Origin: an uncultured Opitutia bacterium
GTDB taxonomy: Bacteria; Verrucomicrobiota; Verrucomicrobiia; Opitutales; Opitutaceae
Length of the DNA stretch: 58,138 bases
Direction of reading: 5' to 3'
NCBI GenBank assembly: GCA_903825285.1
Contig: CAIJZY010000058.1
Span: forward strand, 1 to 58,138
Shown one piece after another: positions 1 through 48,188 of this stretch. The number at the start of each line of letters is the position of its first letter. Position 1 is the stretch's first letter. Below the pieces are notes generated by a model. The model was given only the letters and a program-made list of their open reading frames with translations. It was not told the origin of the DNA and did no database searches. The position numbers were made by a program, and so were the translations under genes.

Positions 1-65
1 GCCGACCCCGCCTGCTTGATGGCCCGCGAGCAACGCGCTTCCTCGGCGGGGTCGGCGACCCCGCC
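1..65. repeat. GACCCCGCC inverted repeat 3' of ettA
   Basis: A 12-base arm at 1-12 (GCCGACCCCGCC) is perfectly complementary to 45-56. A second hairpin, GGCGGGGTC-GGC-GACCCCGCC, occupies 45-65. It lies about 18 bases beyond the ettA stop codon. There is no T-run after the stem on either strand, so it is not a classical intrinsic terminator. It belongs with the other stop-proximal inverted repeats of this window. Confidence 0.7.
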
Positions 66-82
66 CTACATTGCAGGCAGCT

Positions 83-1768
83 TCAGTGCGTCAGCTTGCG
101 GTATTTGATGCGGTGGGGCTGGTCGGCTTCCTTGCCCTTGCGGCGGTGGAAGTCCTCGAGGTAGCTCGAATAGTTGCCGCTGAACCAGTGCACGTAGCTG
201 TCGCCCTCGAAGGCGAGGATGTGCGTCGCCACGCGGTCGAGGAACCAGCGGTCGTGCGACACCACCACGGCGCAGCCGGCGAAGTTCTCCAGGCCCTCCT
301 CGAGCGCGCGGATGGAGTTCACGTCGAGGTCGTTGGTCGGCTCGTCGAGCAGGATCAGGTTGGCGCCGCTCTTCAGCAGCCGGGCCAGGTGCACGCGGTT
401 GCGCTCGCCGCCGGAGAGCACGCCGACCTTCTTGCTCTGGTCCGGGCCGGTGAAGCCGAACTGCGCGCAATAGGCGCGGCTGTTGAGCTCGCGGCCCGCG
501 AGCCGGAGGATCTCCTCGCCGCCGCTGATCGCCTGCCAGATGGACTCGCCGTCGGGCAGCGAGTCGCGGGACTGGTCCACGTGCGCGATCTTCACCGTCT
601 CGCCGACGCGCAGGGTGCCGCGGTCGGCCGCCTCGGCGGCGGTGATGAGCCGGAACAGCGTGGTCTTGCCCGCGCCGTTGGGGCCGATCACGCCGACGAT
701 GCCGCCGGGCGGCAGCGTGAAGTTCACGTTCTCGAAGAGCAGGTTCTCGCCGTAGCCCTTCGCCAGGTCCTTGGCCTCGACCACGAGCGCGCCGAGCCGC
801 GGGCCGGGCGGGATGATGAGCTCGAACTCCTTCTCCTTCTCCGCGACGTTCTGCTTCAGCATCGACTCGTAGGCGTTGATGCGCGCCTGCGACTTGGCCA
901 CGCGGGCCTTGGCCGACTGCCGGATCCAGGCCAGCTCGCGCGCCATCGCCTTCTGCCGCCGGTCCTCGGTGCGCTGCTCCACGCCCAGCCGCGCCTGCTT
1001 CTGCTCGAGCCAGGAGGAGTAGTTGCCCTTCCACGGGATGCCGTGGCCGTACGAGAGCTCGAGGATCCATTCGGCCACGTTGTCGAGGAAGTACCGGTCG
1101 TGGGTCACCGCGATCACCGTGCCGGCGTAGCGCGCCAGGTGCTGCTCGAGCCACTGCACGCTCTCCGCGTCGAGGTGGTTGGTGGGCTCGTCGAGCAGGA
1201 GGATCGCCGGCTGCTGGAGCAGCAGCCGCGCCAGCGCCACGCGCCGCCGCTCGCCGCCGGAGAGCTTGTCCACCGGCTGCTCGCCGGGCGGGCAGCGCAG
1301 CGCGTCCATCGCCATCTCCACCCGCGGCGCCACGTCCCACGCGCCCGCGGCGTCGATCTTCTCCTGCAGCTCGCCCTGCCGCGCCATGATCGCGTCCTTC
1401 GCCGCGTCGTCGGCCGCCGCCGCGAGCTCGTCCCACGTCGCGTCGTATGCCGCCGTGAGGTCGGTGAGATGCTTCACGCCCTCCTCGACGCAGGCCCGCA
1501 CGGTCGCGCCGGGTGTCAGGTGCGGCTCCTGCTCCAGCAGGCCGACGGAGTAGCCCGGCTCGAAGTGGACGCGGCCGTCGATCTCGGGGTCGCGGCCGGC
1601 GAGGATGCGCAGGAGGGAGGACTTGCCCGAGCCGTTGAGGCCGAGGACGCCGATCTTCGCGCCGTAGTAGAAGGACAGGGAGATGTCGCGCAGGATTTCC
1701 TTGCGCTCGATCTTCTTCGAGACGCCCAGCATGGAGAAGATGATCTTGGGCTCGTCGGGTTTTGCCAT
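83..1768 (-). CDS. ettA: Energy-dependent translational throttle protein EttA (ABC-F ATPase)
   Basis: A cytoplasmic ABC-F protein of about 561 residues with two ATPase domains and no membrane segments, the size expected of EttA. The first domain has Walker A GLNGSGKSS, signature LSGGERRR and Walker B LLLDEPTNHLD. A charged linker (WIRQSAKARVAKSQARI) follows, and the second domain has GPNGAGKTT, LSGGERNR and LLDEPTNDLD. EttA-family proteins bind the ribosomal E site and gate the first elongation steps according to ATP/ADP level. I start at the ATG giving MAKPDEP, which has GGGG just upstream; a TTG four codons earlier is in frame but less likely. It is transcribed away from the GNAT gene. The stop-proximal repeat at 1-65 lies downstream. 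Confidence 0.95.
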   Translation of the reverse strand: MAKPDEPKIIFSMLGVSKKIERKEILRDISLSFYYGAKIGVLGLNGSGKSSLLRILAGRDPEIDGRVHFEPGYSVGLLEQEPHLTPGATVRACVEEGVKHLTDLTAAYDATWDELAAAADDAAKDAIMARQGELQEKIDAAGAWDVAPRVEMAMDALRCPPGEQPVDKLSGGERRRVALARLLLQQPAILLLDEPTNHLDAESVQWLEQHLARYAGTVIAVTHDRYFLDNVAEWILELSYGHGIPWKGNYSSWLEQKQARLGVEQRTEDRRQKAMARELAWIRQSAKARVAKSQARINAYESMLKQNVAEKEKEFELIIPPGPRLGALVVEAKDLAKGYGENLLFENVNFTLPPGGIVGVIGPNGAGKTTLFRLITAAEAADRGTLRVGETVKIAHVDQSRDSLPDGESIWQAISGGEEILRLAGRELNSRAYCAQFGFTGPDQSKKVGVLSGGERNRVHLARLLKSGANLILLDEPTNDLDVNSIRALEEGLENFAGCAVVVSHDRWFLDRVATHILAFEGDSYVHWFSGNYSSYLEDFHRRKGKEADQPHRIKYRKLTH

Positions 1769-1825
1769 GACCCCACTCAAACGCGCGATTGACGCGCGGC
1801 AAGCCCCCGGGCTTCGCTATCTCCC

Positions 1826-2335
1826 GTGAACGTCCGCCGCGCCACCCCCGCCGACGCCCTCGCCATTGCCCAGGTCCACGTGGCCTCGTGGCAATCGGCC
1901 TACCATGGCTTCTTCCCGCCCAGCGTGCTGGCCAACCTCTCGATCGCGGAACGGCAGGCGCTCTGGGCGCCGCGCCTGGCCTCCGCCGCCCAGCTGATCT
2001 GGGTCTCGGGCGAAGGCGCGCGGGTGACCGGCTTCATCGCGGCGTGCGCCTCGCGCGACGCCGACCTGCCGCCGCCCGCCACCGCGGAGATCGCCGCGCT
2101 CTACGTCGAGCCGGACGCCTGGGGCGCCGGCTGCGGCCGGGCGCTGTGCGCGGCCGCCCTCGCCCACCTGCGGCAGACGGCGGCGGAGAACGTGACCGTG
2201 TGGGTGCTGGCCGGCAATGTGCGCGCCCGGCACTTCTACGAGCGCCTCGGCTTCGCCACCGACGACGCGCGCAAGGACGTGACCCTGTTCAACGTGACCC
2301 TGCCCGAGGTCCGCTACCGCCAGAGCCTGCGCTGA
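1826..2335 (+). CDS. GNAT family N-acetyltransferase
   Basis: A 169-residue single-domain GNAT acetyltransferase with a GTG start. The acetyl-CoA-binding motif A is visible as IAALYVEPDAWGAGCGR, containing the expected G-x-G-x-[GR] loop (residues about 90-106). The C-terminal HFYERLGF is the usual motif B. Such enzymes move an acetyl group from acetyl-CoA to an amine; nothing here fixes the substrate. It diverges from ettA with about 57 bases between the starts and is followed on the same strand by a nucleotidyltransferase-like gene. No signal peptide is seen. Confidence 0.88.
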   Translation: MNVRRATPADALAIAQVHVASWQSAYHGFFPPSVLANLSIAERQALWAPRLASAAQLIWVSGEGARVTGFIAACASRDADLPPPATAEIAALYVEPDAWGAGCGRALCAAALAHLRQTAAENVTVWVLAGNVRARHFYERLGFATDDARKDVTLFNVTLPEVRYRQSLR

Positions 2336-48025: not shown

Positions 48026-48045
48026 GACGGGGCCGAAGGCCGATA

Positions 48046-48130
48046 TGGAACTCAGGAAATCAGGGGACCTGATTTTTGGCCGCAGGAATGGCACGTCAGG
48101 GTCGATTGGACCCTGATTGCCTGAGTTCCA
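48046..48130. repeat. CTCAGG/CCTGAG inverted repeat
   Basis: Arm one (48046-48065, TGGAACTCAGGAAATCAGGG) pairs with arm two (48111-48130) over 20 bases with one mismatch. It starts 21 bases past the DUF2235 stop. A second, unrelated word pair follows at 48154-48188. Confidence 0.88.
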
Positions 48131-48153
48131 CATCACGCCGAGCGTGGTCTTCC

Positions 48154-48188
48154 TTCGATGTTCGGCGTTGGGCGTTCGATGTTAGGCG
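48154..48188. repeat. Direct repeat TTCGATGTT(C/A)GGCG
   Basis: TTCGATGTTCGGCG (48154-48167) and TTCGATGTTAGGCG (48175-48188) are direct repeats 21 bases apart, upstream of the PhyH-like gene. They have the same short-word style as the inverted repeats but no facing arm. Confidence 0.7.

Follow-up and report, generated by a model that had tools for sequence, protein, structure and literature searches.

Stop-proximal inverted repeats with word-tandem arms in an uncultured Opitutia bacterium as candidate mobile hairpins

A stretch of 58,138 nucleotides from an uncultured Opitutia bacterium (NCBI GenBank assembly GCA_903825285.1, contig CAIJZY010000058.1), taken here as a whole and called the window, holds nine inverted repeats in separate intergenic gaps, and the question it raises is which process placed them there. 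An original prediction, made from the letters alone, had described the nine as one class of stop-proximal repeats with arms built from short tandem words, and had offered 3' mRNA stabilisation, bidirectional termination or a mobile mechanism that rewrites words as explanations. We found that a stop-proximal class with word-built arms does exist in a larger sample of the genome, as judged by tests of placement and periodicity. On balance, we lean towards reading these word-tandem inverted repeats as short non-autonomous mobile hairpins that would work like REPINs, the hairpin pairs of repetitive extragenic palindromic (REP) elements, without being REPs themselves. Sharp-ended copying of a unit (one clear case), species-specific expansion of families and the dimer-like form of elements together argue for mobile elements of this kind.

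The sample comprised the window and forty 20-kb stretches, 858,138 bases in all, from a source genome of 3.74 Mb in 62 contigs, and it carries a bias in that CACGAAG matches were already present on all nine non-window contigs sampled. Genes were called with a home-made codon-usage caller (679 genes), whose starts are less certain than its stops and which small genes may escape. An ungapped inverted-repeat search (score >=14) was applied to gaps of at least 40 bp, of which there were 441; the shuffle control was run at seed 7 and was not repeated for the later set of 80 repeats found at seed 6. Word families were assigned by rough patterns, with 40 of the 80 repeats ending in "other". The comparison sets consisted of genomes of the same genus, labelled G001-G011, and genomes of other phyla.

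Placement and word structure of the repeats

Each of the nine inverted repeats was present where it had been placed, and each beat all 200 of its shuffles in folding (z -3.0 to -10.3). Across the 441 gaps, 79 inverted repeats were found at seed 7 compared to a mean of 0.2 in five rounds of dinucleotide shuffles, and the shorter seed returned 80 repeats in 79 of the gaps. When repeats of score >=20 were sought anywhere in the 858 kb (n = 51), 49 were intergenic, one was genic and one was mixed. It was noted that convergent gaps were occupied most often (25/54), followed by tandem gaps (46/291) and divergent gaps (8/96, with nine repeats in those eight), at densities of 1.55, 0.72 and 0.22 repeats per kb, respectively. 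Within tandem gaps the median repeat began 18 nt beyond the upstream stop, and 39 of the 46 repeats lay within 55 nt of that stop compared to 28.9 under uniform placement (p = 0.0002). The expectation that most of the nine window repeats begin within 55 nt of a stop held for eight of them, at 3 to 43 nt, and failed for the repeat at 3272-3428, which lies 86 nt past a stop.

This placement bears on the possibility that the repeats are selected RNA elements, i.e. 3' hairpins that block exonucleases, RNase III sites or two-sided terminators, with the word design as a by-product. Both the strong preference for convergent, stop-proximal positions and the good folding of all nine window repeats favor such an explanation; the T-runs, however, are near background. 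A T-run (a 7-nt stretch with at least 5 T, no more than 12 nt downstream) was seen at 3 of the 71 repeats with a gene ending towards them, compared to a background of 2.5%, and downstream of none of the nine, as had been predicted. Intrinsic terminators, in which a G+C-rich hairpin is followed by a T-run, were rejected on this count. As regards known RNA families, the sole Rfam match in the window at gathering thresholds was the 5S rRNA at 58042-58138.

Periodic arms were detected in 39 of the 80 repeats (p < 0.01, both arms used), and as single stretches 40% of left arms were periodic compared to 2.3% of 300 other intergenic stretches. The outcome set beforehand as telling against the prediction, no excess near stops and no association of tandem words with inverted arms, did not occur. 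The periods among the 39 were 7 (17 repeats), 9 (15), 14 (4), 8 (2) and 10 (1). At period 7, two adjacent phases took 112 of the 163 mismatches (shuffles 87.4, standard deviation 3.3, maximum 101), and at period 9 they took 45 of 53 (shuffles 32.8, standard deviation 2.3, maximum 39). Because mismatches gather in two adjacent phases, unrelated families follow one grammar, a word plus two free bases: a 5-nt word at period 7 or a 7-nt word at period 9, each followed by a 2-nt free spacer. Period 9 is exemplified by CACGAAG NN, CACGAAA NN and CACGGAA NN, and period 7 by GTTGA NN, CSAAC NN, GTCAG NN, GTAGC NN and TTACG NN. The median arm is 29 nt at period 7 (16-43 nt, about 4.3 units) and 28 nt at period 9 (19-45 nt, about 2.8 units).

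About a dozen word families were counted by eye in the source genome, and families differ among species: TCGA words were found 0 times there and 20 times in relatives, and the REP GGGAGCGAGC 27 times there and 0 times in relatives. Not every family could be counted clear of its reversed control. The spaced CAAG pattern CAAGNNNCAAGNNNCAAG, taken from the window repeat at 5328, gave 13 matches in the source genome compared to 25 for its control, the reversed pattern, which is matched by the CGAAC family as well, and spaced GTTGA gave 33 vs 15 in the source genome and 5 vs 4 in relatives; for both words the reversed control pattern can itself match a word family. The count for the spaced word CGCGGAAG was 15 vs 5 and was likewise not regarded as clear.

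A conserved word with two free spacer bases is also what protein sites look like, and together with the inverted symmetry it favors the idea that the repeats are binding-site arrays for a DNA-binding protein that organises the chromosome, and that selection or horizontal exchange spread them, not mobility of their own. We consider this improbable, as about a dozen word families would demand equally many proteins and at least one whole element, interior included, has been copied.

The CACGAAG family in the source genome and beyond

The pattern CACGAAGNNCACGAAG (<=1 mismatch) matched 137+139 times in the source genome compared to 6+11 times for its reversed control. From the stretches examined, which cover part of the source genome, 37 CACGAAG elements of 59-241 bp were assembled, 24 of them with exactly 3+3 words, and 68 of their 74 arms have AC directly ahead of word one. 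Neither GT[AG]G nor CGTC tags were found in the CACGAAG arms; the end is ACC. Interiors of 90-120 nt were present in 22 of the 37 elements, and GCGAAG and GCCAAG each occurred, in either orientation, in 23 of the 37 interiors. By eye, the interiors mostly hold an inner inverted array pair of related words (ACCGCCAAG NN CGCGAAG ...; CGCCAAG/CGCGAAG), and the long-interior elements look like dimers of hairpins, analogous to the REP-REP pairs in REPINs.

Two full copies lying 1.3 kb apart share 84% identity over 161 bp, and their likeness stops outside TTCACC...GGTGA, so that the element ends in ACC...GGT. Because likeness ends sharply in this sole full-length copy pair compared, the mobile element fits best among the mechanisms that had been offered, whereas intrinsic-type termination falls away with the missing T-run.

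The arms of the source genome are coupled, with 62 of 96 spacer sites pairing compared to 39.7 expected and 4 of 19 word departures common to both arms compared to 0.26 expected, which again favors selected RNA elements. In contrast, the spacers of other phyla hardly pair beyond chance (66/160 vs 60.0 expected). For other phyla, a count of word departures common to both arms (0/23) was invalid, one arm having been preselected as exact. Judged from the sequences, the constant part across phyla is the word rather than the pairing, and one word common across phyla is unexplained by pure hairpin selection.

We assessed how widely the family is distributed. The triple array was found in at least 119 stretches of named genomes, and the matches listed include Herpetosiphon, Desulfobacter, Planctomycetota, Thioalkalivibrio, Methylobacter, Acidobacteria, Kiritimatiellae and Nitrospinota. 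The same anatomy was encountered in 71 elements on these stretches, from many phyla, and among the matches listed 127 of 142 arms have AC ahead of their first word, the search pattern for other phyla having included the C for at least one arm and never the A. In 14 genomes picked from the matches, exact CACGAAG word pairs ranged from 7+4 to 234+225 per genome (controls 0-2), with more than 450 in single genomes as distant as Herpetosiphon and a deltaproteobacterial metagenome-assembled genome (MAG). Closer to the source genome, which is included in both counts, the triple array was present in 22 of 288 genomes of its own phylum and, at <=1 mismatch, in 16 of 57 genomes searched as relatives.

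Viral contigs contributed 99 stretches with the triple array, their viral nature being checked on one contig only, by its genes. The IMG/VR contig 3300009548_000502 (49.9 kb) carries arrays in all three pieces examined (L408, L422 and L423), and the genes of two pieces include those for GemA, Baseplate_J and Phage_base_V proteins. Within L422, two arrays overlie the last codons of reading frames, and the products end in HHEGHE.. tails. These phage genes and the two frames ending in array codons suggest that phages can carry CACGAAG arrays.

A further explanation holds that the repeats are relics of REP or terminal inverted repeat (TIR) families whose Y1 transposases, REP-associated tyrosine transposases (RAYTs) or TIRYTs, were lost. 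It draws on the REPIN-like dimers and on the source genome itself, which has two REP families with RAYTs and one TIR-flanked Y1 gene. However, Y1 genes and CACGAAG arrays were not found side by side at any of the 19 genus loci whose flanks were examined, source genome included, or at any of the 30 loci inspected out of 84 Y1 matches elsewhere, and a Y1 transposase (RAYT or TIRYT) was rejected as the CACGAAG mover for these 49 loci. It was noted that Herpetosiphon llansteffanensis (217+241 word pairs) and the relative G008 (46+48 word triplets at <=1 mismatch, 95% complete) are array-rich with 0 Y1 matches. With the absence of GTAG or CGTC tags from the arms added, this origin appears quite unlikely. 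Since the defining REP tag is missing from the CACGAAG family, and a Y1 gene was not found beside it at the loci inspected, the family was not filed as REP.

Orthologous gaps and the weighing of mobility

The gap that separates the EPSP synthase gene from ruvB was compared in ten relatives. By eye it holds an inverted repeat in the source genome and in eight of the ten (one degenerate), with differing words, and it passes a shuffle test in six of the nine relatives with a testably short gap. CACGAAG words occupy it in the source genome and G002, TCGA words in G004, G006, G010 and G011, the arm of the window repeat at 48046 in G005, and CGCTAAG/CGCGAAG in G008; the copy in G003 is degenerate and G001 has none. 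In G009, the gap matching window positions 13418-13537 holds an insert of ~480 bp, by eye a small HicA/HicB-like pair, which replaces the hairpin. The median protein likeness over the pieces compared is 96.6% between G002 and G004, with G010 at about 85% from both. As G002 and G004 are closer to each other than either is to G010, a word change in the G002 line would, judged without a tree, be the most economical account. The predicted rewriting of words is supported only indirectly, by one orthologous gap with unrelated word families in sister species; independent arrivals at a favoured site would give the same picture.

At the gap 17605/17707, CGCGGA-type words were found in the source genome, G004 and G006, AACRGAG in G005 and G009, CACGAAG-like words in G008 and CGCCAAG/CGCAAAG in G010; the gap measures 0 bp in G003 and 12 bp in G011, and it was unmatched in G001 and G002. 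The gap of the element at 14631-14710 measures 0-37 bp and is element-free in G001, G002, G004, G006 and G010. Elsewhere, the words of CGCNRAG arrays at one orthologous gap (G002:C13, G004:C2, G010:C11) vary among CGCAGAG, CGCAAAG, CGCTAAG and CGCCAAG.

Of 216 gap pairs, 185 were usable. The relative held a repeat in 18 of the 44 pairs whose gap is occupied in the source genome and in 25 of the 141 whose gap is unoccupied there; a first count of lower sensitivity had yielded 11/51 vs 20/138. The EPSP synthase/ruvB and 17605/17707 sites supply 11 of the 18 doubly occupied pairs, and without them co-occupancy drops to 7/26. Conserved co-occupancy as a general rule was rejected because it rests mostly on these two sites. 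Thirteen of the 18 doubly occupied pairs, a few REP-type repeats among them, are without a common 9-mer. In six comparisons of orthologous copies, three of which use the same three sequences, 20 pair-breaking changes were counted compared to 4 compensatory ones, and the case for hairpin selection by compensatory change is weak. For the repeats as selected RNA elements, the persistence of a repeat at the EPSP synthase/ruvB gap under differing words is a favorable point, whereas the drop in co-occupancy and the excess of broken pairs are unfavorable; overall, we regard that explanation as unlikely.

Several observations also weigh against reading the word-tandem repeats as mobile hairpins. The two-phase rule fails to stand out at period 8 (14/22 vs 11.4 in shuffles, maximum 16). 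A second CACGAAG copy pair is alike over half its length only, which recombination explains equally. The emptied gap 14577/14730 also lacks flanking bases, and at the ruvB gap arms and loop are common to G004, G006 and G010, i.e. inherited; with some elements inherited in this way, movement would not be rapid. A mobilising gene for CACGAAG was not found in a search limited to Y1, other transposase families not being searched, and the 49 loci described above, where Y1 genes and arrays do not meet, count here as well. A gene in an Anaerolineales MAG (L160:6490-7449) lies between two CACGAAG arrays 936 nt apart and reads through the first, and a Pfam match above the cut-off was not found for it.

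If the repeats are mobile hairpins, a trans-acting enzyme would recognise the word arrays, either in single-stranded, folded form or as a series of sites, and the same enzyme would copy or move the element. Copies would persist behind stops since they do least harm there, or a 3' hairpin may be of slight benefit to the transcript. Different families would expand in different species, so that a given gap could later come to hold another word. A bolder version, which we put forward tentatively and consider doubtful, is a hitherto undescribed mobile-hairpin class whose modular code joins 2 free nt to each word of 5 or 7 nt, repeated over an arm of ~28 nt, and that would be moved in trans by non-Y1 machinery reading the word and not a fixed end, would swap word families at the same gene end and would be carried between phyla by phages.

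The window repeats and known repeat systems

The nine window repeats do not form the single class that had been proposed: two are REP elements with cognate RAYT genes, one is CGTC-like, and six can be classed by their arms as word-tandem elements, that at 48046 being only weakly periodic. The first REP element, clipped at the window start, occupies 1-70 on the minus strand (previously given as 1-65) with its unit TGTAGGGCGGGGTCGCCGACCCCGCC at about 45-70, and has 33 related 21-mers at <=2 mismatches in the 858 kb including the window (reversed control 0). The second, at 39687-39744 between convergent genes, is a REPIN-type pair of GTGGGAGCGAGCTTGCTCGCGA REP units with 27 related 20-mers in the 858 kb (control 0). 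Both are short palindromes, high in copy number and intergenic, as REPs and REPINs are, and both have the GT[AG]G foot, as GTGG at 39687 and as GTAG in the 1-70 unit. Three Y1 (PF01797) matches were found in the source genome. The Y1 gene L212 has the TGTAGGGCGGGGTCGC unit of 1-70 on its flanks in inverted orientation, and L211 has the GTGGGAGCGAGC units of 39687-39744; as these genes are bracketed by the same units, the two repeats count as ordinary REPs, their cognate RAYT genes lying elsewhere in the genome. The third gene, L210 (G000:C37:26234-29557), has 32-nt terminal repeats containing GGGGTCAG, and its CTAAGGGGTCAGG.. TIRs fit the consensus GGGGWSAS, given as the terminal-repeat type of TIRYT genes in PMC3733652. 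The left repeat of L210 and the sequence following it are present twice in tandem.

The CGTC-type repeat pair CGTCATCCTGAGCGAA.. at 3272-3428 spans 157 bp with a 93-nt interior. There are 16 related 16-mers in the 858 kb (control 0), and a copy on contig C41 is 75% identical over 158 bp. A CGTC end is present, like that in PMC3733652, and on this feature the pair is a candidate CGTC REP, a type in which the end goes with an 8-9 bp stem and a loop of 4-5 nt.

The first of the word-tandem repeats, at 5328-5416, has arms of CAAGTGA/CAGGGTT/CAAGTGA/CAAGG with period 7/14, and the stop codon of the minus-strand gene 5422-8478 is 5 nt away. CACGAAG elements with 3+3 words are found at 13431-13522 (period 9, in the EPSP synthase/ruvB gap) and at 14631-14710 (where ruvB and a GFO/IDH/MocA gene end towards each other). 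CGGAA words of period 8 form the repeat at 17622-17698, between a short-chain dehydrogenase/reductase (SDR) gene and folE2, and CGCTAAT words of period 10 form that at 35496-35586, which follows the stop codon of an AcrB-type gene at a distance of 3 nt and has 18 related word pairs in the 858 kb (reversed control 0). The inverted repeat TGGAACTCAGGAAATCAGG at 48046-48130 has a weak period of 8 (p = 0.01) and begins 20 nt past the stop of gene 46781-48025, whose product has a type VI secretion system (T6SS) Tle1-like phospholipase domain (PF09994). Within the window the repeats are unrelated apart from the pair around ruvB, as had been predicted, but this does not extend to the genome: in a blast search of 800 kb elsewhere in it, seven of the nine had relatives, and those at 5328 and 48046 had none at E<=0.01. 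Two single arrays were also recorded. A minus-strand CSAAC NN array (CTAAC AT CGAAC GC CCAAC GC CGAAC) was seen by eye at 48150-48190, with a Tandem Repeats Finder (TRF) row at 48160-48178 and a second arm not seen, and an isolated CTAATAGGCG tandem of period 10 lies at 3190-3223, directly behind a gene end and without a second arm.

The word-tandem elements were compared with known systems as these are described in the available text of the papers cited. They resemble REPs and REPINs with their RAYTs (PMC3116915, PMC3733652) in being short, palindromic, intergenic and multicopy, in apparently forming inverted dimers, in lying adjacent to 3' ends and in having families that differ by species. 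The CACGAAG family differs in its tandem words with free spacers, the lack of a GTAG tag, the spread of one family across phyla and the Y1 gene not found beside arrays in the loci inspected. The TIRs of TIRYT transposases (PMC3733652, PMC6006769) are likewise long inverted repeats, some of them dispersed, and by eye a kinship of the TAAGG NN family with them is possible; word periodicity, however, is not described for TIRs in these texts, and CACGAAG is absent from the Y1 genes inspected. The TAACTGA repeats of Beggiatoaceae, cyanobacteria and Bacteroidetes (PMC4679880) are also intergenic heptamer arrays, patchy across phyla, whose mechanism was not evident to their author; they differ in being direct and not inverted, and in lying mostly just upstream of start codons in the genome described. 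The class 3 TnpA-Y1 structures, of which Solibacter has ~600 (PMC6006769), are similarly atypical, high in copy number and found in environmental phyla, whereas they have their own Y1 gene and a CnGA foot. As for miniature inverted-repeat transposable elements (MITEs), defined ends were seen in one full CACGAAG pair, and a Y1 partner in 0/49 loci, other transposase families not being searched.

In the open-licence literature available, a description of word-plus-spacer inverted elements was not found, only the REP/REPIN, TIRYT and TAACTGA papers. Inverted repeats occupy 79 of the 441 sampled gaps, yet one of their families, CACGAAG, is without a description found in that literature. If the word-tandem elements move, their mover need not be a RAYT, the enzyme that accounts for REPINs. 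The grammar shared by unrelated families makes the question of the mover testable, and array-rich genomes with 0 Y1 matches would be the place to look for a mobiliser.

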